A stretch of 64,000 nucleotides of DNA from a bacterium (lineage in GTDB: Bacteria > Zhuqueibacterota > QNDG01 > JAFGCO01). The notes below the pieces were generated by a model that saw nothing but the letters and a program-made list of their open reading frames with translations, made no database searches and had not been told where the DNA came from. How positions within the stretch are numbered: the stretch's first letter is position 1; every line of letters begins with the position of its first letter. Shown here in pieces: positions 22,562 through 61,548 of the stretch. The translations under genes and the position numbers were made by a program. The stretch is taken from assembly GCA_016932575.1 (NCBI GenBank), contig JAFGCO010000048.1, positions 62,001 through 126,000 on the forward strand, written 5' to 3'.

Positions 22562-23869
22562 TTATTGATTCGAATTGTTGATGAGTGCCTGTGCCTTGTC
22601 ATTTTGACCCAATTGGTAATACACGGCAATGAGGTTGTGTTTTAAAAGATCATTGTTCTGATGGGCTTGAACCAGCCGAGCCCATCGGTTGCTCAATGCT
22701 TCAAGCTGGTCGGTATGATCGGCTGTGCGAATGACCAGTGGATAAAATTCCGGACTTTTTATATCAAGATTCAGTCCTTTTTGATAGATCTGAAATGCTT
22801 TGGTCCATTGCTCCTGCTCTTCATAAATTGACCCCAGATTTTTTAATCCTATCATGGATCTCGGGTTTAATGCAAGGAACCGTTCATAAACTTGTATTGC
22901 CCGATCCCATCTTTTTTGATTTTTATACACAAGGGCCAGTTGTTCCAGTAAAAGCGGTGCATCAGGGTGGCTTTCCAATAGATTTAGAATCAATGTTTTT
23001 AAAGATTCAGATGCAGCGGAGGGAAACCAGTTTAAAACCACACTTCTAAGCATTTTTTTTAACTCATCGACATTTTTTATTTCGACTGTCCCGGGAACCG
23101 GATTGGTGGAGCCATATTCTGATGAAAGTTGCATCATACTTTCTGAGATGCTGATCTCGAAAACAGCCCGTTTCAGAGCCTTTTCCTGAAACTGCCGGGT
23201 GAGACTTGTATCCGCATGTTTACGGGCATCGATAAATAATTTATAAGCGGACCGGGTCGTGCCGCCATTTTCTTCAGCCTGGAGATAAGCGGCCATTGCA
23301 CTATCGGATTGGCCCGTTTTCTCAAAAACCTGGCCAAGACAGGAAGAAGGCCACGGACTTTTGGGATCCAGATTTTTCCATCGTTTATAAAAAAATTCTG
23401 CCTTGCCATAATCGAAAATCTGTTCAGCCAGATCTGCTGCCTTAAACTGTAGCGCATTATTGTCCGGTTGATTCATAGCCAGCGGTGCAATGATCATCAG
23501 GGCAGAATCGAACTTGGCTTCATACTCATAGGTAGTGGACAGGAGGCGTGAGGCTTGCATGTTCTCCGGATGCATCCGCAGAACCTCCTGATAATAGATT
23601 CGGGCTTCTGAGAATCGGGATTGCATGAGATAGGTTGCAGCGACTTTTAAATGCAGGGATTCAGACTCGGGAAAGCGTTTCAGCTGTTTCAAATAATATT
23701 CACGGTCTGTTTCGATGTTCCTGTTTCTGGAGTGTATCTGATTAAGCAGTGAGTCAGAAAACAGAAAATGCTGGCCCTGGATGGGACCAGCACTGATTCC
23801 AACAATAAATAGCAGACTGTTTATATGGATATGGATAGAGTACTTTTTATTCAAGCGGATGTTTTTCAA
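22562..23869 (-). CDS. Secreted TPR protein, cassette copy A
   Basis: The 435-residue product has a signal-like N-terminus (LLFIVGISAGPIQGQ) and then helical tetratricopeptide-type repeats. Clear TPR units are SESLHLKVAATYLMQSRFSEARIYYQEVLRMHPEN near the N-terminus, LGQVFEKTGQSDSAMAAYLQAEENG in the middle, and consecutive units in the C-terminal half (LALVYKNQKRWDRAIQVYERF, then LGSIYEEQEQWTKAFQIYQKG). TPR arrays bind peptides or partner proteins, so it may be a periplasmic assembly factor; this is inferred. The start is TTG, aligned with the ATG of its paralogue at 43376. It is the distal gene of copy A, 32 bases after the FnIII gene. Confidence 0.8.
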   Translation of the reverse strand: MKNIRLNKKYSIHIHINSLLFIVGISAGPIQGQHFLFSDSLLNQIHSRNRNIETDREYYLKQLKRFPESESLHLKVAATYLMQSRFSEARIYYQEVLRMHPENMQASRLLSTTYEYEAKFDSALMIIAPLAMNQPDNNALQFKAADLAEQIFDYGKAEFFYKRWKNLDPKSPWPSSCLGQVFEKTGQSDSAMAAYLQAEENGGTTRSAYKLFIDARKHADTSLTRQFQEKALKRAVFEISISESMMQLSSEYGSTNPVPGTVEIKNVDELKKMLRSVVLNWFPSAASESLKTLILNLLESHPDAPLLLEQLALVYKNQKRWDRAIQVYERFLALNPRSMIGLKNLGSIYEEQEQWTKAFQIYQKGLNLDIKSPEFYPLVIRTADHTDQLEALSNRWARLVQAHQNNDLLKHNLIAVYYQLGQNDKAQALINNSNQ

Positions 23870-23901
23870 AATGCTGATTCCCGTTTATCTGTTTCTGCTG
23901 A

Positions 23902-25854
23902 TTAATTATTTGAGAAAATCACAGGAGCCGACTGACTGAATTTGCTTTCATTGCCGGATGTGTCAAAGGCTTTAACCCGATACCAGTGATGCGGTTTCCC
24001 CTCTGTATCATGATATTGCAGCGCTGATAACGGGGCTTCAGAAATTTTTTGATACTGGCCGGTTTCTATTTCCGCTCTGTACAGTATGTATCCGGCCAGA
24101 TCTTCAGCTATTGTTCTCTCCCATTGAACGGTCACACCTGTTTTATCTGATTTCGCCTGTAAAAAGCGGGGATAATGAGGCGGTTCATAATCCCGCATAA
24201 ACCTTTTCTCAGATAGAGTGGCAAGACTTTGATTGCCGGTCGTATCCACAGCAATAATACTGTATTGACAGGTATCTCCCTTCATGGCAGTGGTATCCGC
24301 CCATTCGAGAATGGATGATGGAAATTTCCCCAATTCAATGATTGTTCCATTGCAGATTTTGCTTAGTTTATAAATGGCCACATCGGGCGATGTACTGGGA
24401 TTCCATTGAATCAATATTTCTCCTGTTCGAACAATAGTATGCACATCACCCGGCTTCTGGGGCGGCTGATCATCCGGAGTCTCAACCCAGATCGCTGCAT
24501 TCTTGCTCTCTAGCAAGGAGCTGTCAACAGATGTCACGACGTAATAATAACGTGTCCCCGGTTCCAGATTGTTCGTGATGCCATCCGTATAGAGTGTATC
24601 CTGAATAAGCTTTTCAGTGAGACGGAACAAGGTTTTATCCGTCAATCCGCGATATACGTAGAAACCCCAAATATCGGAATCAGCAGAGGGCTGCCAATGC
24701 AACTGTACCTGATGATTTTCCATATAGGATCTCAGATGCATAGGCGGAGAAGGGGGATCCTTGTCTTCAATCCAGATACTGATTCGATTGCTGGGTTGAC
24801 TTTCATTTCCTGCAGTGTCTACGGCCGAGACCGAATAGAAATATTGAGTCCGCAACTTACAGGCGGTATCTGTGTACCACGCTTCTTCGGCCATGATCGG
24901 ATCTGTATTCATTTTCATTGAGGGACCAGTCATGTCGGGTGCGCGGTAGACATTGTAGGAAGCCACATCCAGTTCCGGATTCAGATTCCAGATGAGAGTC
25001 ACTTGCCCTTCCTGGAGCCGGCTGATCAAACCCAGCGGCTGGGATGGCGGCACTGTATCCGTCATTCGCCCGCAAACGATTTTTGAAGGCTCGCTCATGA
25101 GACCGGATGCGTCGACAGCGAGGAGATAATAACAGACACTGACACCCGGCTTCACGTCACGGTCCAGATAGAACATCTCCGGACTGTCGAGTCGCAGCAG
25201 ACGATCCTTGATAAGCTGAAATGAATCATTGATTCGACGATAGAGATGAAACTGAACAACCCGTTCATCGGAATCCGGATTCCACGACGGATATTTCCAG
25301 GCGATTTCCATGCCCGTGGGCTGCGGTGCGAGTGTAATGTCTGCGGGAGGCACGGGTTGTTTTTCAATGATCCTAATCCTTTTTTCAAAGGTCTGCTGTG
25401 TATTGCCCTGACGGTCGATCAGACGAATCCGATAGTTGTAAATTTCATTCTTCTGATGTCCTCCAGCCACAAAGAATCTGCCCAAAACACGTCCGACATT
25501 TCGGTTCAACAAAGTGAAAATACCGCCGTGAAAGGCATCGTTTCTCAGAATATACAGAGTCTGCTGCATATTTTCCGTTTGCAGTGCATCGGCGATTTCC
25601 TGATAATCATCACCGAGCATCCGCCGGGCTTCATCCAGAGACAGCACAGGCCGAATCGGATCCTGTGTGAGCTGAAAAAAATCACTGTCCTGAGGCCCCT
25701 TGCATTCGATCACAACGGATTGTCCCACAGCCGGGGTTTGCATGAGAAAAATGAAGACAGAGTCTCCTTTTACGGTCGATACAAAATTCTGCCCCGGCAG
25801 TGAGGAGTGAATGACCAGACCGATTATCCAGAAAAATTGACGCGTATGTCTCAT
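23902..25854 (-). CDS. Secreted protein with five FnIII domains, cassette copy A
   Basis: After a signal peptide (WIIGLVIHSSLPGQ) comes a unique domain of about 150 residues containing TPAVGQSVVIE, SLDEARRMLGDDYQEIADAL and LNRNVGRVLGRFF. Five fibronectin type III domains follow at roughly 170-265, 266-364, 365-460, 461-558 and 559-650, each opening with a D-x-x-PP-x-x-P type linker and carrying xxYxVYRxxxxxG and YYYxVTxVDxxGNES strands. It ends 32 bases before the TPR gene. The start at 25854 is chosen because its AAGGATT-x-CTCT-ATG context is conserved in the paralogue; an ATG seven codons upstream also has a ribosome site. No enzyme domain or C-terminal sorting domain is seen. Confidence 0.82.
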   Translation of the reverse strand: MRHTRQFFWIIGLVIHSSLPGQNFVSTVKGDSVFIFLMQTPAVGQSVVIECKGPQDSDFFQLTQDPIRPVLSLDEARRMLGDDYQEIADALQTENMQQTLYILRNDAFHGGIFTLLNRNVGRVLGRFFVAGGHQKNEIYNYRIRLIDRQGNTQQTFEKRIRIIEKQPVPPADITLAPQPTGMEIAWKYPSWNPDSDERVVQFHLYRRINDSFQLIKDRLLRLDSPEMFYLDRDVKPGVSVCYYLLAVDASGLMSEPSKIVCGRMTDTVPPSQPLGLISRLQEGQVTLIWNLNPELDVASYNVYRAPDMTGPSMKMNTDPIMAEEAWYTDTACKLRTQYFYSVSAVDTAGNESQPSNRISIWIEDKDPPSPPMHLRSYMENHQVQLHWQPSADSDIWGFYVYRGLTDKTLFRLTEKLIQDTLYTDGITNNLEPGTRYYYVVTSVDSSLLESKNAAIWVETPDDQPPQKPGDVHTIVRTGEILIQWNPSTSPDVAIYKLSKICNGTIIELGKFPSSILEWADTTAMKGDTCQYSIIAVDTTGNQSLATLSEKRFMRDYEPPHYPRFLQAKSDKTGVTVQWERTIAEDLAGYILYRAEIETGQYQKISEAPLSALQYHDTEGKPHHWYRVKAFDTSGNESKFSQSAPVIFSNN

Positions 25855-26041
25855 AGAGTAATCCTTTTTATTCATTTTTCCTGCCTGTCGTTCAAGATGA
25901 TTGTTTGAAAGTGCGCGCCGCAGTTACCGATTTAAAAAAATGGATCAATCCTTTTATTTCCTATTTGTATCCATAGTATCGGTTTACAAAATCTTATCAT
26001 GACTCAAATTCGCATGTATCACGAACCTCTTAAACAACGTC

Positions 26042-29000
26042 CTATTCGCTTTGTGACAGAACCAGCAAGGCAACCGGCGATATGTCGGTCTGATTGACAT
26101 AGCGCGCCATGACATAGAGTGGAATTCTGCCCAAAGTCACCCCAGGCAGAATGATATCCCACTGCGATTGTGCAGGATACATCGCTGGATCAAGAATGTC
26201 ATGAACCTGAGGTGATGTTCCCACCCACAACTCCAGCGGATACAGAATTCCTTCAGATTGTTTCAGCTGCAACAGGCAGCAGTCCTCTGCCTGTCTCAGT
26301 GTTCCTGTGAGGGAAGGAGCTTCGAGTGTGCCGATTTTCAATTCATGATAACAGGTCAACGAATAGGTACCGGATGCGGCAACGCTCCGGGCTGTCAGAA
26401 TCCATATCTGACCCCGGTTTGAAGGATCGAGATCCCGGCGATATTCAGGCGCAGAGGCTGTTAATGAGACGTCCTTCTGAATATTATCGGATCCCCTGGA
26501 TGAACCGATCCGGAATTTTACCTGTTCCGCGTTGCTGAAGGAGACGGGTTCGGCAGTACAGACCAGAATATCATGCTCGTTTTCATGCATGATATTCAGT
26601 GTCAAATGCGGGAGGGATATATTTGGGACTGTGGTCTGAACAAGCATGGTGTCTGTCGGGTTCGATTTCCGGTCAAAACCGCAGACCGACAGACTCAGGA
26701 CCGATCCCGGTCCGATATTCGTCTGTGTCAGGGAATGTGTCCAGCTGAATGTACTCTGGGACGAACTCAGGGGGATCCGGGTGACTTCGACAATATCAGA
26801 GGTTCCCGCTATGCTGCCGATCCAGAGCTTCAGGCCGGCCAGATTTTCTGCGGATGATTCGCCGTGAAGGCTGCCGTTAAAATGCAGACAGAGCAGCCCG
26901 TTTTCCTGAGAAAGGTAAAAATCCGTATTTTTCAACAGATCGTTAAAGGAGGCGGCGAGCCTGAAGGATTTTAAGAGCGAAGAAATGCCTGCTTCGGTTG
27001 AGACGCGCAGGGAAAGATAAATCACGTCGCCCCTTGCAATATTCTCCGGAAGAAAGATGCTCTTTCGGAATTCTGTTTCGATTTTGAAATCTTTTTCCGG
27101 AATGATATCTTCTTTATTGACGCCGGTTCCGACCATATAGTATATGGTACAGACCCGCTCCATTTTTGAGCGGGCATCCATTTCTCCGCTGAGCAGAATA
27201 ATCATCGACTGATCATCACCACTCATTTCCACCGTGATCGGAGGCAGATGCGGCGGCAGTGTAAATGACTGATCAACGTGCGGATAGCCAAAACCGTTCA
27301 CATCCTTTTTATAAATCCGTGTCGTATATTCGGGCCCGGTCTTGAATTGATCTGACAGCTGCAATGATACGGAACCTGGCGGATTCGAGAATATCTGTTC
27401 CTGAAGAATCTCCGATGTTTCTCCACCCGTAATCAGCACTTCCAGTGTCTGGGCGTTGAGAATACCTCCGATACGCAAGACGGGGAGATCTCTGGAATCG
27501 TATCCGGGCTGAAGAATGTATGGTTTTAACGTGAGCGCCGAATGGGTCAGAACAGTTTCAGTGAATTGATTCTGACCATTGACCGTTCGTATCACGATGA
27601 CAAAATTCTGCTGCGCAAGCGTTGATCCGTCGATATTTACCGGACAGGACAATTCTGCGTTGACAGTGTTTTTTTCGGGTCCGAAATCAAAGAGAGGATG
27701 TCCTTTGCTGTCCGTTTGGAACGGTTTCAGGTGCAGATCATCCGTACTGCGTCCCATAGCCACCTGAATCCCGGCGATGTCGCTTTCAGTATCCTTACAG
27801 GGCTCATGGATCTGAATCAGCAGCTCATTATCCGCATTCCATCCCCTGAATTCCGCCGAAAATGACGAAGGCTTTGTCGGATCATCTATTTGTTGTACCT
27901 CAAAGACGGCAGCAGGAACGATGATTTCGTTCTCGTCGTTTTTCACACGCAGTGCGATTTGAAAGGTTTCTCTGAAGGGCAGGTTCAGGGGCAGATCGGG
28001 TATATTGCCCTGAAAATTGAATTGAATGGTTCCCTCATAAGAATTGATGCCAGAAACAGGCTTCCATGCCCCGGCATCAATGGACGATCCGTTTCTCAGC
28101 AATTGAAATTCATAATTCTCCATATAAAATTTCCGGCAGCTTACTCCATCATCCGTCGTAAAATAGATTTCTCCTGCAAGCGGCAGGCTGAGTTTGGCGT
28201 ACAGTTCTTCGACACTTGATTGAGAGATGGATACTGTGGCCTGTGCATTTTCGGGAAAGCCAATGCAAGAAGGATTATAGACCAGCGGATATTCTGATAC
28301 CAGGGGCGTGCTGTAGAGTCCGGTCAGATCCCTTGCGCGCACACGTACTTCATAGGGTTTGCCTTTTTCCATGTTGACAACAACGCTTGCGGAGTCTTTG
28401 TGTATCGCAGGTTTCCAGTCCACTATAGCGGAACTGCCTTTCCAGGGCCAGACCGAGATTTCATACTGGGCAATTTCCCCGGAGGACAGGGCCTGAGGCC
28501 ATGAAACAACGATCTGGTTTCCGGATGACATCAGATAACAGTCCTGCTCCATGCCTGTTCCGGACATCACGCCTGTTACCTTCTGAGAGGTGTTTTTAAT
28601 AACCAGAGGCTGGCCCGGAAATTCCGGAGGAATGGCAGTCGGGGTGACCGGCTGATAGAACTGTGTCGTGGGTTGGTTACCTCCGTGCTGAATCGTAATG
28701 CTTTTCTCGGGCGATTCCACGGTCAAACCGGCGATGTTTCTGTACCGCGCTTTAACACCGATGCTTTCTTCTCCCATTTTTGCAGGGAAAATCGGCGCGG
28801 TAAACGAAGAGACCTTTCCTATTGACTGGAAATTATGGCCCGATATGGTATAGGCATGTTCAATGATGCCCCCGGCATTTGAAGCATCCCCCATGTTCAG
28901 GGTCAGATTGACCGGACTGTAACGTTTGCCGGATGCGGATTCTTTCACATAAAAACTACAGAGGGAGGGAAGATAGAGTTCGGTTTCGAGTACTTTCATG

Positions 29001-32000
29001 CGGTTTTCCATACCTGTTAATGCATTCTTTAAATCGGCTGAACAATCCGGATTTTGTCTGGCAAGCAAAATGAATTGCTGATAGGCCGTATAGAGTTTTT
29101 CGGTCAGTTCTGCGTACTGATCCCAGATAACATCAAGTTTTTCGGTGAGTTCCCGGTGCATGACATCCTTGTCTGCATTGTAATTGCGATGGATCCGCGT
29201 GGCCCGCAAGTAGAGGGTGTCGAGTTGAGATATGGTATGTAAGGCGAAAGCCTCAGGCACTTTGCCGTAGAGTTGTCGGCTTGTGGTCTCATAGGCACTG
29301 CACAGTCCGTACAAATCCAGGGTCCATGAATCCACATCCAGCATGGTATTCGATAACTTTTCCATGACGCCGATTCGACGGTCCACCAAAGCATGAAAAT
29401 CCTTTTGAAAATCTTCGAACAACTGCCTTGCGTTTTCATTTGTTTTTATTGGCAAAGGAGTTGTATTCGGATCAATGTATACATGCAAATGTGTTAAATT
29501 TGTGCCCATATGGCTTTGACCATAGATATGTTGATTGACATGATCAACGACGTCCCGATAAATTACATATTTGGCTTCCATGTTGTTAATGGCCGATGCA
29601 TCAATCTGGCTTTGCATCGACGGGCTGACGAATTTTTCCATGGCTCTGCTGATATCGCCATCCGGTCCGATCACGGCGTATATGACTGACCTAATACTAT
29701 CGAGATATTCGATCTGCATCTGCAAATCGGCCAGAGCGGTTTGAACATGGCTTGAATAATCATTGAGCAGTATTGTATTTTCATTATGAATGGATTTGTC
29801 CACATCGAATGCGGGTACTGTCACTCCTTCATCAGAAACAGAAGAACCGGTTAACAGCGGATTCTTTAGAGCGGATAAAGTATCCGATTTCAATTCTTCA
29901 AGGTGAATAGCGGTCCGTAACTGTTCCAGAGTGACTTTGGCTTTCTGGCACTGCTGATTCAAACTGTTCCGATGGTCCTGCAGTTCAGTGTTCAGATCTT
30001 TCTGATACTGGTCCGCGTCCTGTTTCAAGGCAGGAATCTGTGCGATGGTTGAAGGACTTAATGCAAGGAGTATTTTATCTGTGAATGCATGATAATCAAT
30101 CATAGCAGTCAAATCCGCATAAGAGGGTTCTTTACCGTCATCAGGACCGCCATACTTTGGGAAATTATATAATACGCGCCCTAATGGATATTTTTCCGCA
30201 TCGATCAAGTCGTAAAGTTCGGTTCTCCCTGTGGATATGTTTTTTATAATCCTGTCCATCATGGCTTCATCCAGAGCGAGCTTCAGCGGAATATCACCCG
30301 CGCTTAATGCGCCTGCGACTTGTTCGGTCTGACCCTTGATGATTCTGGCTGCTTCCGCCGCTTCGGCAAGCGCTATTTGTATACCCGGATCGCCGCCCAG
30401 TCCGCCGTCAAACGAGCCATTCCTCCATCTGGCCCAGACCGATCCGCTCCAGCTGGCCAATCCCCAGCAGGCACTCAACCTCAGTTTCGCATATCCGTAG
30501 AAATAGGGGTCGGGAATTATGATCAGCGCGGCGCCCAGCTCGCCCTTTGCTGCAGCCAGCCCTGCGAGCACTTCCGCTTCAATACGTGCCAACAGATAAC
30601 CGCCCAGGGAAGGATGTTCCTGATCCCAAACCACCCATACGGCATTGTCCAATCCGGCATGCACGGACAGAACGCCGATATCAAATCCGCCGCTTATATT
30701 GCCCTGGATGAGAAATCCGGGATTGCCGATAATGAGATCATAATTGGCTTTGAGAATATTCAAAATATCGATGTTGATATTGCCCTGAAGACCCCAGTAG
30801 AGCTCATCGCTGTACACAACAGCGAAGGCCACGGTTGCTTTTTGGCCCGTATCGCTCAGCTTTTTCAGTTTGAGTTCAATATCCAGATTTCCCTGGAGAT
30901 AAAAGCTGCCGATACTGCCCATTGTGTTCAGATCCTGCAATCCGGTTTCCAGATGACCTTTGGCGGTGATGTCGAGATGGTCAGACATGGCTTTCAGGAT
31001 GGTGAGAGAGGCATCGAGACGAATATGATCCGAGGAGAGTGAGAACAGGGCACGCCCGGAGATGGTTTCTTCCCTGACCAGGGCGACACCTCCGAACACG
31101 AATACCTGAATCAGGGGATTCGTCTGGGTATATTGAGCAAACGAGGTTTGCAGCCATTCCGATTCGTTGTCCAGTTCGCAGTGGCTGTATACCCACTTTT
31201 CGATGCGGTCTGACGGATTGAAAAAGATTCCACCGCCAAAATCCGTTACTGATACAGGTCCGATTTTGATTCCCTCCTTCATACTCATGGCGAGGAAAAG
31301 TCCGAAGCCCGGCAGCGAAACATTGGCGCCGCCGACCATTCGATCTTCATAGGCGATTTCACCCACGGCAGTAAAACTGAGTTCATCTTCGATTGACAGA
31401 CTGCCTCCGGCCGTTATCCGGAGCTGGAAGTTCTCATGGGTCAATGGAATACGGGCTTCCAGGTCCAGACGCCCTTTTACAGTATCCTTTAATTCGAAAT
31501 TCACATTGTCAAACAGCAAATAGAACTGGGTGGCATCTTTATAGATGATGAATTGGTCCATACCGCCCTCAAATCCTTGCACTTCAGTGCTGATGGAGGC
31601 TTTGAAGGTCACATAGAATCCCTTTGTGGATCTGGACCCCTGAGAAACGGAACCGCTTGAAATGTTAGCCGCTGAAAAATCGAAGGACAGCGGATCTGTC
31701 CCATAATTGAAATCGCTGACCGTTATTTTAAATCCGTACAGATTCAGTTCTCCATTCGTTATTCTGCCGAATTTCGTTGAATTGGGTGTAAGAACAAATT
31801 CTTCAAACGGGCAGCCTCCGCTTCCTCCGGGCAGACAATTGAGCGTCAGATTGCCCCCCAACTGAATACTGAAAACATCATCCGTATTTACTGAAATATG
31901 GTTTACTTCCAGGATAATGAGGTCTTCCAGAACAATGGCCGGCGCGGCTGCTTCTTCCAGGGTCCAGGTTTCTCCGGTAATACGGCCATTGTCAAAATCG

Positions 32001-39880: not shown

Positions 39881-41620
39881 TTACAGTTTATGTGTCAGCA
39901 TCAAACTGAACTGTTGTTCTTCATACTTTCTATTGCTGCGTATCATGGTCATGAACCATTTAAAATTGATCTGATTTTTATGGGTCAGGTAATAACTTGA
40001 CGTTACACCGCTTCGGATGGACCGGGTATCCCGTACCATGGACGAGGTACTGAACAGGGATGTGCTCAATCGGTTATTCATTGCAATATGGGTTAAACGG
40101 GCGGAATAGACCTGTGTCGTGTAGGCATCCTGGTTGCCTGAATTGCGATAAGATACACCCACTGAGAAATTCATGGTCAGTCTGGTAATCAGTTGAAACG
40201 AGCCGGTCAGATTTACAGTATGATAATAAGCCTTTGATTTTTCCTGACGCATATTTTTATCAGAGTGTTGAAATGTATATTGCATGCCCATTTGCCTGAC
40301 GATCGATTCATTAAAAACCAGAGACTGATGGGTGGATATGATCCAGTTGGAAAAATCCCAGCTCAGGGAATCGCTCGAAGCGTTGTTTCCTGTGAACAGC
40401 GAATTTACATTGAAATTGGAACGCCAGTTTCCCAGTCGAGAATTGATCGATCCCTGGATCTGATCGCGTGTATTGGTTTCCTGTTTCTGTTTTGACAGGT
40501 TGTCAGACAGACGCACGTACCGTATATTTAACCTGTGTTTTTCAAAACGATAGATGGTTTGAAGATTCAATTCTCTTCGGTCATTCACCATGGATGGCAG
40601 TCCGAGTGAGTGAAATCCGGGACCAATGGTTTTGTACCCGATCTGTGTGGTAAGTTGGGTCGTTTGAAAGTGAAGCCGCAGGTCCGTGGCATAATCCAGA
40701 TTCGAACCGGTTCTTGGCGTGAACACGTTTCTGGAGAGCGTTTTCAACCAGGTGGGGGCATCCAGGCTGTCCTGGTTGACGGGTCTCGCATTGATGTTCT
40801 TGGTATAACCGCTGGCCGTGCTTTCCCATTCCAGAGTCAGCCTCTGGTTTAAAATCGTAAGACGTGTGGCTATGCCAGCGACCAGATTCTCCCGGGGTGT
40901 AACTGCCAGAGGATGATACGGGGGTTCTATCCAGATTGTGTCCGTTTCAGTTTCCAGTGTATCGGGAATCACATAATTATAGTCAACATTTTCCGGCACT
41001 GAAAGAGAGCCCGCATCATCTTTAACTTTCAGGACAATCAGATCAATGTATGAGCCGTTTTGTTTCCCATATCCCAGACGCGAGCCGATGAGGTATTGAC
41101 TGTAACTCTGATTGATTACAGTCCCTTCCACGGCCCGTTTGGTCTGGCCGCCACCCAGCGCGAATCGCATCCGCCCTGGGAAAATGTCGATTTCAGCGCC
41201 TTTGACATTGATTCCGTTGAGTGAATATCTGGAGAATTGACCTGGATAATCTCCGAAATGTGCCTTTCCCCATGCCCATGAGGGATGCAGACCCAGAATG
41301 TTCATATTCTGACGGGTCCGCGATCCTTCCGTTGATAAGAGCAGATCCGCTGATACATTGAACAAATTGGAGATCTGCAGAAGAGGCCGAAATCCGATTC
41401 TTCCTGTTGATGGCGGCCTTCTTCCCTCAATCCCATGGACATCGTAAAGTTCACCGTAAACATGAGCCTGTCCTGACAGCCGAACCTGTTGCAGGATTGG
41501 ATATTTTTTGGACAATTCCTGAGCGTTCAGTGTTGTTGCAGGATTTCTGATTTCAATCATGAATATCAAAGAAAGTAGAATCTCTAAATTGCAAACCGTT
41601 CTTTTGAACAATTTTTTCAT
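39881..41620 (-). CDS. Outer-membrane beta-barrel-like protein, cassette copy A
   Basis: The 579-residue protein has a hydrophobic N-terminus (LEILLSLIFMIEI) and a likely cleavage near TLNAQE. The mature chain is dominated by alternating polar/hydrophobic strands with aromatic girdle residues. Examples are QAHVYGELYDVHG, GRIGFRPLLQISN, WGKAHFGDYPGQFSRYSLNG, RFALGGGQTKRAV and the closing QFSLMLTHKL. This suggests an integral outer-membrane barrel; no TonB box, plug or POTRA domain is seen. The ATG at 41620 (GGAT seven bases upstream) gives the same length as copy B, so a TTG 66 bases upstream is rejected. It is first in the operon and the best conserved of the five families: 56 of 65 residues match copy B in a block I aligned by hand near the N-terminus. 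Confidence 0.78.
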   Translation of the reverse strand: MKKLFKRTVCNLEILLSLIFMIEIRNPATTLNAQELSKKYPILQQVRLSGQAHVYGELYDVHGIEGRRPPSTGRIGFRPLLQISNLFNVSADLLLSTEGSRTRQNMNILGLHPSWAWGKAHFGDYPGQFSRYSLNGINVKGAEIDIFPGRMRFALGGGQTKRAVEGTVINQSYSQYLIGSRLGYGKQNGSYIDLIVLKVKDDAGSLSVPENVDYNYVIPDTLETETDTIWIEPPYHPLAVTPRENLVAGIATRLTILNQRLTLEWESTASGYTKNINARPVNQDSLDAPTWLKTLSRNVFTPRTGSNLDYATDLRLHFQTTQLTTQIGYKTIGPGFHSLGLPSMVNDRRELNLQTIYRFEKHRLNIRYVRLSDNLSKQKQETNTRDQIQGSINSRLGNWRSNFNVNSLFTGNNASSDSLSWDFSNWIISTHQSLVFNESIVRQMGMQYTFQHSDKNMRQEKSKAYYHTVNLTGSFQLITRLTMNFSVGVSYRNSGNQDAYTTQVYSARLTHIAMNNRLSTSLFSTSSMVRDTRSIRSGVTSSYYLTHKNQINFKWFMTMIRSNRKYEEQQFSLMLTHKL

Positions 41621-45328: not shown

Positions 45329-45368
45329 AGAGAAATCCTTCATATTATTGATTTATTCAACATCCGAT

Positions 45369-54300: not shown

Positions 54301-56774
54301 GCGGCTCCTGCTCCTGGTTGTCCGGATGCAAAGTCTGCAGAGACGGACAACTTCAGAGGATCGGACAAATTGCCTGTGAGACTGCCCTGCAGTTCATGGA
54401 TCTGAAGTCCTATGGATTCAGAGACGTTCAAGGGCGCCCACAGCGGAGACAAATATGCACGTGCCTCTATTGAACCGACAAAAGAACCATTTTGATATTC
54501 TGTATTCAAGGCGGTCAGGGGTGAGGCTGCAAGATTTTGCAGATGCTGCGGGAATCCGGTCAATGAGATCGACAGATCGAACCGGATGTCGGGCTGGGAA
54601 TGTCCGTCGAAAATATCGATCCAGGCTTCCCGGATGTGTACGGCATCCGGCACGATTCTCATGCCGCTGAGGTTGATACTCTGTCCCTGATTCAGCGTGA
54701 TATCAGCTTCCGGGAAATGCAGTCCCTGCTGTGTGAAGTGCAGGCCCGTCAGTTTTGGCAACGTGAACAGAGAGGGCGAGCCGGTTAATTTTGGAGTGAC
54801 ATCCAAAAGAAAATCATACTGCCAGGGATCTGACAGACCTGGCTGATATGTCAGTGTTTTTATCTGCAGAATTTCGAGTGCCAATTGATAGGAACCCGTC
54901 GTTAATGTCGCCTGACCGCTTGAGGCGGACATATGCCAGCCGCTTCGGTCTGTGGCCCATTGAACAGGAATCCCGCTCCCTTCTGATGCATCTGAAAATT
55001 GCAGTGATCCGTAGAGGTTCAGCAGAAAATCCGTGTTGACAAATCCCTGCGCAGGATAAATCTGCCCGTCGGTTTCTGTGAGATTGAGGATCAGATGATT
55101 GGAAACAAGAGGGATTTCCATGGAAACAGGCCCTGCATGAATGTCTCCGTATACATACCCGTCTCCGGTCAATGTCAGATGAGCCGGAGCGGCCGTGCTG
55201 ATGCAGCCGAAAACTGCAATGGCCGCCTGAAGATGAAAAGTCCCTCCGCCGGACGCATCGTATTGAATGGTCCGAATGACCATGGGAAGACCGGCGGGAT
55301 TCAGATCGAACGGAGATCCCAGTCCTGCCCGGGTATCCGCATTGACTGTGCCCGACAGAATTTCCCGGGTGAACCGATCCAGTACCAGATCCACGGTCGC
55401 ATTGACGGTTGCTGATGAAGCCACGGCATTCAGACACAACGGGACCAGATTCGAGACCGGGGATTTCAGATAAATCCGGGCCGAATCCGGAGACAGAGAG
55501 CATTGAACCAGACAGGTCTGATTCTGCTTTAATTGCAGCCAGGCAATTTCATCGGATGGCAGGGGCAGCCTGTCCGGGATCAGATCGCTCAAATCTTCCG
55601 GAATGGTTCCGGGGGTGAAGGTAAACGTGCGAATCTCGCTTTTTCCTTCATTTTGGGTTACCGGATACCCGTAATGATCACGTGCGGTGACCTGCCAGGC
55701 ATACTGCGTTCCGGATATCAGAGGATCGGCCCATGCAGGGTAGTCCAAAAACGGATCGGTTAATGTTGCCACGTTTTCAAAATGTGAAGGATTTTGCATC
55801 AACGCCTGCTCCGGGGACTGACCATTCAGAACCGGCACAATGCGTAATGTATAATAAACCAATCCCTCAATCGTTACCTGAGGTTCCAGCCACTCAAAAA
55901 CCGGCCGGGCAGACATGACCAGGGCATTGTCTTCCGGAGAGATCAGTTCTACGGGCGGTGCCTGTGCCTGCATATCACTGCTTATGGTAAAGATGCCCAG
56001 TTCGCTGTATCCGTTGTTTTTGGTTGCCGGCCGTCCCAGAAAATCGAGGGCCTGAACCTGCCAAACGTATGATTTGCCAGGCTCCAGACTTAGTCCGTCC
56101 AGCGGGTATTCGAGATTTGAATCGAACACATTGAAGTTTTCATAATGCGGATAATTCGCTTCAATGGCGATTTCAGGCAGCTGCCCGTCCAGCAGTTCCA
56201 CAAGCCGAAATACATACACCAGATTCTGGGTGGGCGGAACCTGAGGCGGTATCCACTGGAAAATGGGGTAAGGATCAAATACCATTTCGTGATCCACAGG
56301 ATAGATCAGCTCCGGCGGTTCAGGGTGGGCAATGGTAAAATAGGCACAGATATTTGTGATGAGAATATTTCCCCATAAGTTAACGGCTTCCGCGCAGGCT
56401 TCATAGTCGCCTTCGGGAAGCATGCCGGTTCGTGAGATCTTATCTTTCAGATTCTGGTTCACCGACTCCGTAATCCAATCCGGAAAATCGGTCGGATCAA
56501 TATGAATGATATCTCCGGCTTCGACCAGCAGCCGGCCGGAATTGCCCTGAAAAACGAGGGCCCCCTCCTGATAGACTTTGCCTTGGACAATGATGACATC
56601 GGGTTTTTCCGAAGTATTCATGATTTCCAGAGAAGCCAGTGTCGGATCAGACTGCCAGTCGCTGAGATAGGGAGAGGGATTGGGATCGACCATGAGATTG
56701 GCGTTCCAGTTTTGAGTGTACAAAGCAGTCGTGAAACAGAACACAGTAAACCAGAAATATCGTCTTGGTTTCAT
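45369..56774 (-). CDS. Giant secreted multidomain protein (3801 aa), cassette copy B
   Basis: The layout matches copy A: a signal peptide, the DPNPSPYLSDWQ domain, two Ig-like modules, a beta-strand region to about 1700, the Gly-rich beta region (GGGIFFNPTARIEDW), a helical segment (about 2155-2605) and FnIII-like C-terminal modules with loops such as IGTESGNDDIL, IGSARGQNDVL and IGSRSGATDIR. In the first 82 mature residues 51 are identical to copy A by hand alignment. About 215 residues at the C-terminus have no counterpart in copy A: one more module and a final beta domain ending APYRVNP. At roughly 400 kDa it is among the longest bacterial proteins expected; extracellular location is inferred from the signal peptide. 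It ends 40 bases before the FnIII start. Confidence 0.8.
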   Translation of the reverse strand: MKPRRYFWFTVFCFTTALYTQNWNANLMVDPNPSPYLSDWQSDPTLASLEIMNTSEKPDVIIVQGKVYQEGALVFQGNSGRLLVEAGDIIHIDPTDFPDWITESVNQNLKDKISRTGMLPEGDYEACAEAVNLWGNILITNICAYFTIAHPEPPELIYPVDHEMVFDPYPIFQWIPPQVPPTQNLVYVFRLVELLDGQLPEIAIEANYPHYENFNVFDSNLEYPLDGLSLEPGKSYVWQVQALDFLGRPATKNNGYSELGIFTISSDMQAQAPPVELISPEDNALVMSARPVFEWLEPQVTIEGLVYYTLRIVPVLNGQSPEQALMQNPSHFENVATLTDPFLDYPAWADPLISGTQYAWQVTARDHYGYPVTQNEGKSEIRTFTFTPGTIPEDLSDLIPDRLPLPSDEIAWLQLKQNQTCLVQCSLSPDSARIYLKSPVSNLVPLCLNAVASSATVNATVDLVLDRFTREILSGTVNADTRAGLGSPFDLNPAGLPMVIRTIQYDASGGGTFHLQAAIAVFGCISTAAPAHLTLTGDGYVYGDIHAGPVSMEIPLVSNHLILNLTETDGQIYPAQGFVNTDFLLNLYGSLQFSDASEGSGIPVQWATDRSGWHMSASSGQATLTTGSYQLALEILQIKTLTYQPGLSDPWQYDFLLDVTPKLTGSPSLFTLPKLTGLHFTQQGLHFPEADITLNQGQSINLSGMRIVPDAVHIREAWIDIFDGHSQPDIRFDLSISLTGFPQHLQNLAASPLTALNTEYQNGSFVGSIEARAYLSPLWAPLNVSESIGLQIHELQGSLTGNLSDPLKLSVSADFASGQPGAGAATLGPVDNCSLDLDGIFTGEIKPAYSNLNLPWGDWTVHLDQSALNLLRGSSGQAALLRFDGHIALPEYPPDAAVQADGQGRYDLIMAVLDSGEFIISGPFTLPVPAADPVFGLRCTGGAVVAPSGILFNNAAGEIILEDGASSALTYSQNTQISAVDHIPFTGDIAFSESFAFRIRDLNETANQMSWKAVASNALLDTSREELIFHVPGTAVRITQGNWQFSQTATAHLSYAGLNFTNLLADCSNDLNFSFSPFQVQTGQIQLFSGEELIATLDNSGFWPGDIFSGAEMQDPSRLLLPDETIAYIQLKDDAGNWLVDVQDMGLHLNVSTTQSGPVPLVMPGLRYGASSDPQVRVHLDQVIVNKANLRMTQGTIQVDSGELPLSLQNAGLALEISDIQYATADQKLLASIRPVLPRIFSSASLTVADISVKPDGLEGFQHKDPEGKLLASIPVGSQLNCTISEIDGSFLSSDKRLVCKGQLLVDLFQQNGTTKPMDYTLNLKAGQADFTIQLIYDETNGYALPLGKAKLRLTDDAGIPEISIQAPFDQENLIVTLQTLKLSLPELGNGLVLAMENLIIDKNGIQPPQIPTDPSQVIQFGGLDFTLSGEQKVTWESSPPGLTMTLGGNFQIWNRDIPFGDLMLGTDGSFSGTNLLPDSVQTLSGLMALTQLILGDGLTFTGEILPPEPFQELGAMPFTIYLDGNGNWVDKSGNRIADQTITALSGESETGADVYLGSEPLRVRCRLSGLGVNLPVSLSKATGQLDIAINTYWPKVDAYDPGNFEEKIGLTGLIEFADGSITGESWTLEETTAPAFVLGELIRLDIENISAVTQGGFRIELGGSLTLNCLPEGSGGCQFEEFILAKDSTGFGIISSGELNLYGFNISVSNFDYGTDPLSFDVYNANASQGTLSEDSKSTGGFYVTFKASISSDIAGFSGGVDQFIVYKDATQFYLLLDNANFEFQETVKGRLDLEALIPLTLEDFQFQMSVGGSLTVNGTGFAAVGEIAFKEDMIFGQQTKMPSFGLFLGLVGQKITLTPLPITITDVGGGIFFNPTARIEDWVYSNCGLNNESEWLKTSFDEYTQTNPLLSVFILGGVSLPDGDAIKGRVLYSLASDHIRLDNSLTILAYESMKPFLEISAKGHIEAGFQDLISMGNLSNFYLEGNLDVQLKLKKLNDIGPSASLAFGLVHSSGTLYWGIHGNMNIEILNILNADYELIVGNPGFLIEGSIHSGFDISILSVDAGLENALWVVWDGSNPSMGAYMTGYLDAEVAWGLAWARGELGAALLIIPSPYFYGYAELECGFLGWDWNATAWAKWEDGSFDGGLGDAPGMEKVLAEAAAAADAIKDQTNDVSSALGAGSIGLKLGLDEAMMARIINNISAGRTGLYDALETDRQFVVDVLNGVGFGPNVSGFNSFVQKVRNGLSPSTIQQLKSLKQDANTYEEDLETELQNHRNALKDQSDKAKADLQKLQTAISIATTKHDSTIALNNPLGPGTSASAGGVSVPSFQVNTSVYENNKSLVNNYSSNVGTALNDMKNQIAYLDSLRSEIYSVIGPGSDMSMTLEKFVSPAMQSQINAPIFTNMETKFDLYQGIKNQINQNVFSPDGDLAMKLRSLQNLINFDDASVPYYELKFRAALDHRIETMDALADTMRGVDAWEINLGGMCEGIETTTRQFYGTVPFAFSSHTQVQLDTLYLRATRIHRNYITDKDMMHQDLTGKIDVLWDRYAELTEKLYTAYQQFIMLAKQVPDLPDAFKNALSDMENRMKTLEQELYLPAPSSVSVTKSEPGLRYGPVDLSLSLGGGSGTDDIIEYAYTLSGSNFQATGTKASFSTPVFPAVMGQTEQMNFKARYRNTAGLTVESAGRNFSIQHGGTQVTEQTYEPTIPTSPPAFPNQPLIIKNTYQQVWGHLSKNGVYQECYLLNTSSRLRIAWPQAQSASGGIAQYEVAVRTWDDHQTVVDWTPSISRDSASVAVVMEQGKPYEVMVRAKDLAGQTGTPLISDAPLVYNPDYIGFPEGARITASTLDFGESHLRSQAEGPLAGEYYFTSESKGTCRKFYTNHYEIQLLRNGAAINENAWESVSEYSTDITIQSYNGIIKFYFQGGTYCLPNNLPFKESFEIALRVKNNTGEIVVPASIFQIQQIQDATKPSACTAEFKGWDIDGNLLIKILQPSVDGESGVSGIQVAVGRSADDLGIKPFRYDADSHPLFDFGPEKNRTNDLLSCPLSMDGSVLAQSDFVIAIRMVNAQHQFAETVLEQSALTSQPYILTIGYNPSDRPYLSISGILNAQTLIVRIIDNASSEMLQETVLPRPSGSVSFLLPASLKVGSQYTARIHNRDKNGLYHPALDQAFALRPHLPPVTMQINDDGRFRKIQIKGTLDDRAKAEQVQTLYYRVGRGRGQENILAETAFRIQSDFERSIILPDSLRGGDRIYLSMRVSTNQDIYSELKVYPLAIPYRGLFTDTDFYLTRDNNCYYAHLAGTLYEEAVSGNLSGVKLWIGTESGNDDILKAVNVALTPPQKTFAWKTTLPEDQIGPGSSLHGSVCGYDRGLTLTDTLHVQTALPNVSLPKLDFEYISENGQILLVGSADPSSFSQADHVEFRIGSARGQNDVLTGAALTSSEPSYRISIPDDCRGRTLTVTARGFASDGTPSLTCYFETRVSALDAPVLTGQLFQATGQYLLRLFSQSSSQPIFSNIEVWGGAAPQARDIFTPKTGWASNRWDFLFSNEAFDGHQLFVTARYVSGDDRSPVTVLLVSRSDYQNIIGNIRESDHRPEVMIQYEAFKGEQPVAGVQYAIGSRSGATDIRNYPAQGTYDFNPSEIQPGSSVLLPDSTTHMPGKVWISLKAVAASGYAHVSENTFMPKPRAPEAEVYFYQKPSGYEYFVCKIDPETVRDHDQALLSVVVKKNNTPILVWTDIRFSRFLVNGQFIREAQLPVTLGPDESLNVSVDYAVPNGGYYQGSYRSTLTAPYRVNP

Positions 56775-56796
56775 AATTTAAACCCCGTTCATTCGG

Positions 56797-59763
56797 TTAC
56801 GGATTGGTGATGGTCAGCCCAAATACTTTTGTATCGGACAGCGGATAATTATTATCCGTGACCCGGACGGTGATTGAAAATGTTCCGGTCTCTGTCGGTG
56901 TCCCGGTTACCCGGGCACATTCTCCCCAGTCAGAAAAACTCAGCCCGGCAGGCAGGGCGCCTCCTGTCATTGACCAGGAATAATCCGCAGTTCCGCCTGT
57001 AGCGCAGATCAATGCTTCATATCCTCCCTCAAGATACTGACCTTCCGGCAAGGGGGAATCAGTATAGATAACCAGCGGTTCCGGATTCACCGTGATGCTG
57101 AATGCACGCGTATGGATTTTTGGCGGACTGTCGCTGTCTGTTACCCGGACAGTGAAGGCATGGACTCCTACAGAATTCGGTATTCCGCTAATGTCCACGC
57201 ATTCATTGATCGGCGCACCGGTGTACAGATCGGGCGGAAGTGATCCGGAAATCACGTCCCAGGAATAGGGCAGAATCCCGTCGGCGGCGCACAAATAATC
57301 GGTATAATAATCGTACACAGTGGCGTTGCTGAGCGATGTTGTAATAATGCGGAAGGGTGCAACCTCCCCGATGGTCAATGAAAACCGTTTGGTTTCGAAA
57401 AGGCCGGTATAAATATTATCTGTCACCTGAACACTAAACGTATAGGTGCCTGCTGTTCCCGGGGTGCCCCGGACAGTGGCATGGTCCCCGTTATCGTTAA
57501 GGGTCATGCCGGGCGGCAGGCTGCCGCTGCATAAATGCCAGCTCCAGTCCCCGCTTCCACCATGGGCTTCGATGTTGGCACTGTAATAAGTGCCTTGAAT
57601 ACCGTCCGGAATTTGATTGGTACTGATCCAGAGCAAGGGCGGCTCGATGGTTAATATATATGCCTGCTGATGGGTCTGAGCGGGTTCACTTTGGTCACTT
57701 ACCTGAACAGTTATCGGAAAATCGCCGGTTTCTCCGGGGGTGCCGGTGAAATACAGGCATTCCTCCATGTTGGTTTCCAGACCCTGAGGCAGACTGCCCT
57801 CCGTAATTTCCCATTGATAGGGGGGTGTTCCGTTTTCTGCGCACACTGCCTGATTATATTCAACATCGATTCTTCCCGGTGGCAGCAATTCAGTGACAAT
57901 ATGCAGGACGGGGGGGTGAATCATAAGATGATATGCCTTATCCGCCTGCATGGCAGGATCACTGCTGTCTGTCACCTGAAGAGTCAATGTATAGTCTCCT
58001 TGCGTTTCGGGTGTTCCTGTGATTGTCACGCATGCCCCGTCTTCTTCATACTCGATTGCAAGCCCTTCGGGCAGTTCGCCTTGTGAAACGCTCCACGTAT
58101 AGGGAAGCACACCGTCAGTTGCGCACACACTCTGCGTATAGAATGATTCCAGATATCCATCCGGCACAGTGTCCGTAATGATTTGCAATGCAGGCGGCGC
58201 TGGTTCGATATCCAATATAAAGGCTTTTTGAGCGGTCGCGGGCGGTTCATTACTGTCCATGACCTCAACAGTAAAACTGAAGATTCCTGATTCAGCGGGT
58301 GTGCCTGAGATTTCCAGACAGGTTGCCGATGTCGTGGTTAAACCGTCAGCCAGGTCACCCTGAATTATTGAATAGGTATAGGGAGCCTTGCCTCCTTCAG
58401 CGCAGATACTGGCTTCATAGAATTGGTTTTCTGCCCCGGAATCCAATGTGGTGGTGGAAATCGACAGGTCCGGCTGAGCGGATGCCACGTGTAATGAAAA
58501 AATGATCTGTGTCTGGGTCTGAGGATTGCCGGGATCGTATCCCTGAGCCATCCAGGAATAATCTCCCTCAATATCGGGTGTGCCCGAATAACAGATTTCC
58601 GTTCCGATATCGACAGTTATCCAGTCCGGATAATCCGAGAGTGTCCATTGATAACTGGCCAGGTTGTCAGGCGGCGCGTAACATTCCGAGTATTCCTGGT
58701 CCGCCTGACCATCAGCCAGGTTCACGTTCAAGATCTCTATATCCGGCGGGACTATGTTAATATATCCATCAAATGTCACCCATTGCTCCGGATATCCGCT
58801 GTCCTCGATATCGATGATCAGCGGGAATTGTCCCTGGAGGGTCGGTATTCCGGTGATGATAATGCAGGAATCGGACAGGGAAGCGATCAGACCGGGAGGC
58901 AGCTCACTGTCTACCAGCTCCCAATCATAAGGCGCAGTTCCCCCTGAAAAACAAATGCCGGCCTCGTATTGAACTCCAAAAATGCCTTCGGGAAGTGTGG
59001 TCGATAATAATTTCAGTGATTCCGCGACTGCCACCTGAAACCCGATGACCTGACTCCAGGGAGATGTTGCAAGACTGTTTTTTGCACGTACCCGGTAATA
59101 ATAGGTGCCGTCCGGCTGCCCGGTGATTTCAAATGAGGTATCAGAGCCTGAGTATATCCGATCCGATGATGCGAAATCCGATGCTTTGCTTTCTTCCAGC
59201 TCAAAAGAATCAGCTTTTGCTACATGTGTCCAATTCAGAGAATAAGCCGCAGCATTCATCGGATTCATGGATTCCCATCCTGTAAATTCGGGAGCAGAAG
59301 TCGGATAATTGGGAGTGATTCGGAGCGTTATCTGGATCTGGTTTGGCGGTCGTATTAAAATCTCGCTTGTATCCGCGCTGAAGATCACATGACCGTGCTG
59401 ATTTATGACTTCAACCAGCACATTGTAGATGCCAAGTTCAGCCTGGATGGAATAGACCGGCAGGACTTCTGTAAATTCATGGACAATTGGCCCCGGTTCA
59501 AGCGTGATACGCACCATGGATACTTCGGGAAGTGTGTCTGATTGGCTGGAAACGGAAAGGGTTTTATCCGGATTCTTCATTGGTTCAGAATCTGCTGTTT
59601 TTAACAGAGGTGTGTGCGACAGCTTCAGGGCTTGTATTTTTTCAAGGTCGGACCATTCAATATTGAGGGTCAGTTCTCCAAACTCGGGCGAAACAGTGTT
59701 TCGACAACCCATTTGCATAAGAATCAGGAGCAGAAAGGGTTGGATTAAACGAAACGGTTTCAT
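56797..59763 (-). CDS. Lipoprotein with eight putative-Ig (He_PIG-type) repeats, cassette copy B
   Basis: The 988-residue paralogue of the protein at 36853 has a clear lipobox (LLLILMQMGC). The conserved beta domain and FnIII-like domain (WTHVAKADSFELEES) are followed by eight putative-Ig repeats of about 90 residues. Typical repeat text is PYTWSVSQGELPEGL, ITGTPETQGDYTLTLQV. Seven of eight repeats have a conserved Cys in the first strand (xxVCAxxG) and another just before ISG/ITG, against four in copy A; repeat six lacks the pair. The pairs probably form disulfides stabilising each repeat outside the cell. The ribosome site AAGGAG is conserved with copy A. The giant gene follows after 22 bases. 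Confidence 0.86.
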   Translation of the reverse strand: MKPFRLIQPFLLLILMQMGCRNTVSPEFGELTLNIEWSDLEKIQALKLSHTPLLKTADSEPMKNPDKTLSVSSQSDTLPEVSMVRITLEPGPIVHEFTEVLPVYSIQAELGIYNVLVEVINQHGHVIFSADTSEILIRPPNQIQITLRITPNYPTSAPEFTGWESMNPMNAAAYSLNWTHVAKADSFELEESKASDFASSDRIYSGSDTSFEITGQPDGTYYYRVRAKNSLATSPWSQVIGFQVAVAESLKLLSTTLPEGIFGVQYEAGICFSGGTAPYDWELVDSELPPGLIASLSDSCIIITGIPTLQGQFPLIIDIEDSGYPEQWVTFDGYINIVPPDIEILNVNLADGQADQEYSECYAPPDNLASYQWTLSDYPDWITVDIGTEICYSGTPDIEGDYSWMAQGYDPGNPQTQTQIIFSLHVASAQPDLSISTTTLDSGAENQFYEASICAEGGKAPYTYSIIQGDLADGLTTTSATCLEISGTPAESGIFSFTVEVMDSNEPPATAQKAFILDIEPAPPALQIITDTVPDGYLESFYTQSVCATDGVLPYTWSVSQGELPEGLAIEYEEDGACVTITGTPETQGDYTLTLQVTDSSDPAMQADKAYHLMIHPPVLHIVTELLPPGRIDVEYNQAVCAENGTPPYQWEITEGSLPQGLETNMEECLYFTGTPGETGDFPITVQVSDQSEPAQTHQQAYILTIEPPLLWISTNQIPDGIQGTYYSANIEAHGGSGDWSWHLCSGSLPPGMTLNDNGDHATVRGTPGTAGTYTFSVQVTDNIYTGLFETKRFSLTIGEVAPFRIITTSLSNATVYDYYTDYLCAADGILPYSWDVISGSLPPDLYTGAPINECVDISGIPNSVGVHAFTVRVTDSDSPPKIHTRAFSITVNPEPLVIYTDSPLPEGQYLEGGYEALICATGGTADYSWSMTGGALPAGLSFSDWGECARVTGTPTETGTFSITVRVTDNNYPLSDTKVFGLTITNP

Positions 59764-59808
59764 GGGGATGCTCCTTTTTAATTGATCTTTTTATCTATCA
59801 GCCGCATT

Positions 59809-61548
59809 TTACAGTTGATGTGTCATCATCAGGCTGAGGTGCTGTTCCTCAAAATTACGGGTGCTTCGGATAATGGTCATGAACCATTTAAAATTCAACT
59901 GATTTTTTTCTGTCAGACGATAGCTTGAATTGATACCGGTTCGGATAGAACGGGTATCCCGCACCATGGAAGAAGTACTGAAAAGAGAGGTGCTTAAACG
60001 GTTTCGAAAAGCAATATGGGTTAACCGAAAAGAATATACCTGGGTTGTGTATGCATCTTTCTGATCCGAATTGCGATAAGACAAACCGAGAGAAAGGTTC
60101 ATGGTCAGTCTTGTCATAAGACGAAGCATGCTGGTCAGATTTGCAGTATGATAATAGGCTTTTGTTTCCTGCTGGCGTATATTTTTATCAGAGTGCTGAA
60201 AGGTATATTGCACACCGACCTGCCGTATGAATGCGTCTTTAAATGCCAGTGATTGATGTGTTGAAAGAACCCAGTTGGAAAAATCCCAGCTCAGGGAATC
60301 TTTTGAAGCATTGTTGCCCATCAACAGCAAATTGATACTGACATTGGAGTGCCAGTTTCCCAGTTTTGAATTTAACGAGCTCTGGATTTGATGACGCGTA
60401 TTGGTTTCCTGTTTTTGTTTCAGCAAATTGTCTGAGAGACGACAGTATCGTGTATTTAAACGGTGATCTCCCAGCCGGAGCGAAGTATTCATATTCAGTT
60501 CTTTGCGATCATTGATCATGGAGGGCAGCCCCAGAGAACGGAATCCCGGTCCGATGATTTTGTATCCGATCTGTGTATTGATCATGGTTGTTTGAAATCC
60601 AAGCCGGACATCTGTGGCATAATCCAGACTCGATCCTGTTCTGGGCGTGAACATGTTTTTGGAAAGTGTTTTCAGCCATTCAGATGTTTCCAGACTGTCC
60701 CGGTCGATGGGCTCTGCATTTAAATCTTTTGTATAACCGCTGGCTGTACTTTCCCATTCCAGTGTGAGCTTGCGGTCGAACAGGCTGAGCCGTGTCGCAA
60801 TGCCGGCAACCAGATTTTCCTGGGGTGTTACAGCGAGCGGGTGATACGGGGGCTCAATCCAGATCGTATCCATTTCACTCTCTAGGGTATCAGGAATAAC
60901 ATAATCATAGTCGAAATCTTCTGCCACCGAAAGAGACCCGATATCATCTTTCACTTTTAAGACAATGAGATCGATATAAGAACTGTTTTGTTTTCCATAT
61001 CCCAGACGTGAGCCAAAAAGGTATTGTGCATAACTTTGGTTGATCACATTGCCATTTACCGCGCGCTTGGTTTGACCGCCGCCTAAAGTAAAACGCAGTT
61101 GGCCCGGATACAGGTCAATTTCTGCACCCTTGATATTCACACCGTTCAACGTATATCGGGAGAATTGATCAGTATAATCTCCAAGATGGGCTTTTCCCCA
61201 GGACCAGGCGGGATGCAATCCCAGAATATTCATGTTTTGACGGGCGCGAGATCCTTCTGTGGATAATAACAAATCTGCGGACACGTTGAACATGTTGGAG
61301 ATTTGCAGGACGGGTCTTAATCCTATACGGCCGGTTGATGGCGGACGTCTTCCCTCAATGCCGTGCGCACCATAAACTTCACCGTACAGGTAGGCCTGTC
61401 CGGACAGGCGGAAAATTCGGGATAGCTGAACTTGCGGTGCGGATTCCTGAGCATCGAGTGCTGTTAAGGCACTGCCGGCAAAAATGCCGCATATCAGAAT
61501 GAGGGGCACGTACCGACATTGAATCATTCGGTTGTGTGATTTTGTCAT
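59809..61548 (-). CDS. Outer-membrane beta-barrel-like protein, cassette copy B
   Basis: The 579-residue product equals copy A in length when both use the ATG with GGAT upstream. The N-terminal signal (PLILICGIFAGSALTALDAQE) has a good ALDAQ cleavage site. Long runs are shared with copy A: HGIEGRRPPSTGRIG, FNVSADLLLSTEGSR, RQNMNILGLHP and TDTIWIEPPYHPLAVTP. Strand-rich segments continue to the end (LSLMMTHQL). The strong conservation compared with other cassette members suggests that the barrel has the most constrained role, perhaps export or anchoring; this is inference. It is divergent from ubiA, with 369 bases between the start codons. Confidence 0.79.
   Translation of the reverse strand: MTKSHNRMIQCRYVPLILICGIFAGSALTALDAQESAPQVQLSRIFRLSGQAYLYGEVYGAHGIEGRRPPSTGRIGLRPVLQISNMFNVSADLLLSTEGSRARQNMNILGLHPAWSWGKAHLGDYTDQFSRYTLNGVNIKGAEIDLYPGQLRFTLGGGQTKRAVNGNVINQSYAQYLFGSRLGYGKQNSSYIDLIVLKVKDDIGSLSVAEDFDYDYVIPDTLESEMDTIWIEPPYHPLAVTPQENLVAGIATRLSLFDRKLTLEWESTASGYTKDLNAEPIDRDSLETSEWLKTLSKNMFTPRTGSSLDYATDVRLGFQTTMINTQIGYKIIGPGFRSLGLPSMINDRKELNMNTSLRLGDHRLNTRYCRLSDNLLKQKQETNTRHQIQSSLNSKLGNWHSNVSINLLLMGNNASKDSLSWDFSNWVLSTHQSLAFKDAFIRQVGVQYTFQHSDKNIRQQETKAYYHTANLTSMLRLMTRLTMNLSLGLSYRNSDQKDAYTTQVYSFRLTHIAFRNRLSTSLFSTSSMVRDTRSIRTGINSSYRLTEKNQLNFKWFMTIIRSTRNFEEQHLSLMMTHQL

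Follow-up and report, generated by a model that had tools for sequence, protein, structure and literature searches.

Tandem giant-protein cassettes in a candidate division KSB1 genome: a possible outer-membrane display system with a barrel partner shared with the Bacteroidota

The DNA analyzed here, called the window throughout, is a stretch of 64,000 nucleotides (positions 62,001 to 126,000 of contig JAFGCO010000048.1, assembly GCA_016932575.1) from a genome of candidate division KSB1. It contains two tandem cassettes, A (22562-41686) and B (42075-61560), each of which encodes, in the order of transcription, a beta-barrel protein, an Ig-repeat lipoprotein, a giant protein, an FnIII protein and a TPR protein. 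An earlier note on this DNA had described such a tandem pair, and its coordinates and its claim that all the genes are intact prove correct: the ten open reading frames are uninterrupted, all lie on the minus strand and their order is identical in the two copies. In cassette A these are the barrel (39881..41686; 601 aa when counted from a TTG, an inner ATG being the probable true start), the lipoprotein (36853..39813; 986 aa), the giant (26042..36838; 3598 aa), the FnIII protein (23902..25875; 657 aa) and the TPR protein (22562..23869; 435 aa). Their counterparts in cassette B are the barrel P0010 (59809..61560; 583 aa, with an alternative possible ATG at 61548), the lipoprotein (56797..59763; 988 aa, with He_PIG repeats), the giant (45369..56774; 3801 aa), the FnIII protein (43376..45343; 655 aa, its conserved N-terminal part being our profile FN3N) and the TPR protein (42075..43376; 433 aa). 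The reported overlap of a stop and a start codon is also real, since in cassette B the stop codon of the FnIII gene and the start codon of the TPR gene share nucleotide 43376. Judged by eye, all ten proteins have the N-terminal signal sequence that had been claimed for them, and in the Ig protein this signal ends in a cysteine that both cassettes share with ten relatives.

Within giant B (minus strand), residues 21-390 (55605..56714) comprise the N-terminal domain of the giant, hereafter GNTD, together with Ig/FnIII-like domains. Residues 400-2180 (50235..55577) form a beta-rich core covered by the profiles GMID1 and GMID2, and residues 2150-2650 (48825..50327; profile GCOIL) a helical or coiled-coil region that is putative, being proposed from sequence alone. 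Profile comparison found no significant internal repeats in the giant core and no significant similarity between the GNTD and the N-terminus of the FnIII protein, and a scan of viral families returned generic Fn3/Ig matches only.

Over full alignments the A and B proteins are 72% (barrel), 51% (Ig lipoprotein), 57% (giant), 59% (FnIII) and 56% (TPR) identical. The identity of the giants drops to 41-44% towards the C-terminus, where giant B has about 215 additional residues. Aligned codons of the two cassettes differ at position 2 in 12-30% of cases and at position 3 in 48-56%; this concentration of differences at the third position indicates that both copies have been kept as coding sequence, and both cassettes are under purifying selection. 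Between them lies a relic of a UbiA prenyltransferase gene (41981..42052, plus strand), whose 24 residues are 75% identical (E 9e-10) to the intact UbiA (61882..62757, plus strand; PF01040, E 2e-43) situated just upstream of cassette B. This relic, which marks the junction of the duplication, implies that the duplicated segment took in flanking DNA. In comparisons among KSB1 sequences, the barrel, giant, FnIII protein and lipoprotein of each cassette have their nearest relative in the other cassette. The simplest reading is that a single tandem duplication would have copied the cassette with part of the divergent UbiA gene, the inner UbiA copy decaying afterwards. The whole is framed by housekeeping genes, with S2, an amino acid kinase family gene, ribosome recycling factor and an ACT/HAD gene on one side and UbiA, D-Tyr-tRNA deacylase and Maf on the other. 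Two adjacent Fib_succ_major genes (19459-21035, minus strand) also lie beside the cassettes.

The relatives that bear names are mostly metagenome assemblies of candidate division KSB1. A giant profile matched 17 of the 147 genomes searched, and the N-terminal part of the FnIII protein was found in 10 of 124; nine of these also match the giant strongly, and the match in the tenth is weak. A single barrel sequence used as query against the genome contigs gave no matches; an alignment-based search succeeded. The order barrel, lipoprotein, giant, FnIII recurs in the genomes G064, G004 (at two loci), G049 and G001, and matching partial loci interrupted at contig ends occur in G002, G011 and G012. 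Conservation of this order, together with the pairing of barrel and GNTD across the Bacteroidota described below, bears out the suggestion that the genes are a working unit; the contrary pattern, in which the five families would usually occur apart in other genomes, was looked for in gene neighborhoods and not found. What does not survive is the idea of a fixed set of five, because the TPR gene changes place, closing the set in G049 and opening it in G001, and is absent beside the FnIII gene in G064, and the lipoprotein was seen in KSB1 only. The cassette thus appears to be a conserved unit with a movable or missing TPR gene. In three of these loci (L042 and L043 in G049, L048 in G001) the giants are split over several frames, and the lipoprotein is also broken in G049 and the barrel in G001; the broken giants reflect either assembly errors or decay. 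A programmed frameshift at about residue 1245 was considered for them and rejected, as the shifts are opposite in direction in the two genomes and further genes there are also broken.

Outside KSB1, the barrel profile matches 135 of 395 Bacteroidota genomes. At 36 of the 40 Bacteroidota barrel loci that were read, which are mostly the stronger matches rather than a random sample, the barrel shares a same-strand cluster with a gene for a GNTD or a giant core, which in 26 cases stands directly downstream of it; an FnIII gene accompanies them at many of these loci, and a TPR gene at three. Barrel and GNTD form the deep core of the gene set. The earlier note had taken the retention of two divergent copies to imply partner-specific pairing. 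Two linked copies do not imply this, and co-divergence was tested separately: for 40 pairs drawn from both phyla the barrel and GNTD distance matrices are correlated with r = 0.93, the maximum among 2,000 permutations being 0.16. Exchanging partners in four genomes with two loci lowered r in all four, clearly in G293 (0.930 to 0.875) and barely elsewhere. Since linked inheritance alone would be expected to produce a high correlation, the value of 0.93 signifies that the pairs stay together and not that they bind. Among the KSB1 families alone, co-divergence is weak once the A-B pair is left out (r -0.28 to 0.56). A more direct argument for contact is provided by two natural fusions in Bacteroidota, in which an N-terminal GNTD is followed by the barrel in one polypeptide (L161, 7357-10407, 1016 aa; L162, 7803-10394, 863 aa). 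Ig, FnIII and TPR genes are common in these genomes, and repeat-rich surface genes with no joint function could in principle cluster by chance. We consider this scarcely credible, given the order conserved in several families and in two phyla, the fusions and the co-divergence; the neighborhood data already contradict it.

The earlier note knew of no named system with this composition, a statement that now has to be qualified. TANFOR domains (TIGR02542) are the N-termini of a class of polymorphic toxins of Bacteroidetes; the proteins carry toxin domains, their neighborhoods are rich in Fn3 and SprB genes and their export by the type IX secretion system (T9SS) has been proposed (Jana, Salomon and Bosis 2020, PMC7073777). 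TIGR02542 found nothing above threshold in the window giants, their own genome, the 147 relatives or one neighboring phylum. The same model matches 9 of 38 barrel-linked GNTDs from Bacteroidota, with a best E of 2.6e-13, and the kinship of the window giants to TANFOR follows from these matches, through the GNTD profile only. Their N-terminal domain is a distant relative of the TANFOR domain. A TANFOR match (E 0.001 or better) occurs in 12 of the 395 Bacteroidota genomes, every one of which belongs to the 135 matched by the barrel profile (hypergeometric p 1.8e-6); judged by the listed coordinates, in nine of the 12 it lies within about 12 kb of a barrel on the same strand. The published class is therefore related to one component of the cassettes, but the text of that paper says nothing of a barrel.

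This kinship raises the possibility that the giants are TANFOR-class contact or release toxins and the barrel their delivery pore. The two groups have in common very large size, Sec export, a homologous N-terminal domain, T9SS-bearing hosts and Fn3 neighbors, an FnIII gene standing directly downstream of the giant in both cassettes, and the toxin domains of the TANFOR proteins would by homology speak for a similar role here. A locus on plasmid pEMTOL03 of Emticicia oligotrophica (L173, 14995-25511) adds to this: a barrel, a 2719-aa GNTD giant annotated as an HNH endonuclease and an SMI1/KNR4 gene stand in a row, and by its gene content it is a putative toxin-type member of the family on the plasmid of a cultured bacterium. 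The window giants, however, not only lack a direct TIGR02542 match but in Pfam scans have no C-terminal toxin domain, and neither is followed by an immunity-like gene of the kind that is common behind antibacterial TANFOR members, the next genes being FnIII and TPR in both cassettes. Among 35 giant C-termini, Pfam gave a single weak toxin match (AHH, E 0.006), and the window giant listed there had none. The C-termini of giants A and B, moreover, can still be aligned and are not unrelated to each other. As an account of the KSB1 cassettes the toxin hypothesis is in our opinion improbable.

In Bacteroidota, SprB and SprF exemplify a giant repeat-rich surface protein with a small outer-membrane protein partner, and to that extent they and the T9SS resemble the giant and barrel of the cassettes. 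The giants and FnIII proteins might accordingly be ordinary T9SS substrates, with the barrel no more than a surface anchor. SprA was detected in 84 of 89 genomes searched, the host's own included (G000:C6:97032-101261, E 3.5e-191), and the proposal of T9SS export for TANFOR proteins (PMC7073777) points the same way; SprA is nevertheless so nearly universal in the phylum that its presence does not discriminate. In the giant, FnIII and Ig proteins of cassette A no sorting domain of the TIGR04183 type was found, the FnIII and Ig proteins of cassette B had none in a Pfam scan, and the sorting-domain families of Pfam were likewise missing from the 35 giant C-termini, which included both window giants. 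Neither barrel (P0005, P0010) matched the PorP/SprF models of NCBIfam or Pfam, and the pairing with the barrel involves an N-terminal, not a C-terminal, domain. An ordinary T9SS substrate is, on this evidence, a distinctly improbable description of the giants, although with SprA so widespread the T9SS could still be their export route.

Structure predictions, built on few sequences (10 and 5), offer further comparisons. The AlphaFold2 model of the cassette B barrel has a mean pLDDT of 74.9 and about 26 strands, 26 being the count when a strand must span at least three residues. The model of giant residues 21-1215 has a mean pLDDT of 57.6 and is confident only for the N-terminal Ig/FnIII-like domains, and its PDB matches are limited to model residues 1-369. 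The best structural alignment of the barrel model is to MtrB, whose 26 strands form a barrel around a partner protein (Z 19.3, 444 residues aligned, rmsd 6.4, 10% identity, for a model of the mean pLDDT just given). Unlike an MtrB conduit, the barrel has no Pfam match to MtrB, and Pfam detects no multiheme cytochrome domain in the ten cassette proteins. The best Foldseek matches of the same model are pilus ushers (E 6e-9), large barrels of the FimD/PapC kind whose likeness to it is structural only, at about 10% identity; the cassettes have no usher Pfam match and no chaperone or pilin genes. Both resemblances may concern size and fold only, as a common fold alone may be what is shared at 10% identity. 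In outline the cassettes also recall two-partner secretion (TpsA/TpsB), where the exported giant is recognized by a domain at its N-terminus and its cognate outer-membrane barrel is encoded next to it. The TpsB barrel, however, has 16 strands as against the roughly 26 of our barrel model, and no POTRA, FhaC/ShlB (Pfam, barrels) or hemagglutination-activity domain was found.

The barrel and the GNTD are also found in other surroundings. One locus (L091, 6039-12502) encodes a free GNTD protein, a FecR protein, a distant barrel relative and then a CHASE2-cyclase, and in a second (L092, 9103-13652) free GNTD, FecR and distant barrel genes stand beside a 708-aa gene. The two loci belong to KSB1 and a neighboring phylum, and their free GNTD proteins are 354-364 aa long; overall, free GNTD proteins in FecR/CHASE2 loci beside a barrel relative measure 354-373 aa. 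Such loci hint that the barrel-GNTD pair is older than the giants and could have an additional or alternative sensing role. Extended to the cassettes, such a role would make barrel and GNTD an outer-membrane sensory or signaling module and the giants ligand-binding receptors, an idea to which the FecR gene of both loci, the CHASE2-cyclase of the first and a weak DUF928 match in two giants lend something. The giant cassettes, however, have no FecR or CHASE2 gene and the free GNTD proteins are shorter than the giants by a factor of 4 to 10, so that we regard this as a very improbable function of the cassettes.

The explanation that we favor, with a confidence only slightly better than even, is that the cassettes belong to an outer-membrane display system found in both KSB1 and Bacteroidota, of which they represent the KSB1 branch. 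At its core a large beta-barrel would be dedicated to a giant that is exported by Sec and docks on it through the GNTD at the outer membrane; the barrel would retain the giant there and would probably let a portion of it cross to the cell surface. The barrel pairing of the relatives, the signal sequences and the Ig/FnIII content argue for display at the outer membrane, and from these we infer that the giants probably reside at the outer membrane or the surface. The role of the FnIII protein, joined in KSB1 by the Ig-repeat lipoprotein, would be that of an envelope partner lengthening or stabilizing the structure, and the TPR protein could be an accessory assembly factor; the envelope-spanning or surface apparatus pictured by the earlier note may be of this kind. 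Because the window giant has neither a recognized toxin or immunity partner nor a T9SS sorting domain, a long surface fiber or adhesin is a likelier role for it than a toxin and is presumably its function. Giants that end in nucleases would be served by the same pair of barrel and GNTD in some Bacteroidota. A broader proposal, which we advance tentatively and think rather less likely than not to hold, is that barrel and GNTD constitute an unrecognized T9SS-independent secretion route of KSB1 and Bacteroidota, with one barrel per giant, addressed through the N-terminus and used for fibers and TANFOR-class toxins alike.

How TANFOR-class giants cross the outer membrane was left as an open question (PMC7073777), and the co-diverging and sometimes GNTD-fused "hypothetical" barrel is a named and testable candidate for that step. 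The KSB1 cassettes present the system with giants free of any recognized toxin. The recurrence of the barrel-giant pair in many Bacteroidota, sometimes with giants that bear toxins, suggests an overlooked way of displaying or releasing giant proteins. Cultured carriers exist, and about a third of the sampled Bacteroidota genomes have a match to the barrel profile. On plasmid pSP2_2 of Runella sp. SP2 a GNTD giant and then an FnIII gene come after the barrel, and in this record, as in that of Emticicia pEMTOL03, the barrel is annotated as a hypothetical protein. An essentially unannotated megaplasmid of Persicobacter sp. JZB09 carries a barrel, a 1560-aa gene, an FnIII gene and a 2119-aa GNTD giant (L108, 9944-25726), and on a contig labeled Bacteroidota a partial gene resembling a giant C-terminus is followed by FnIII and barrel genes (L066, 3-5027).
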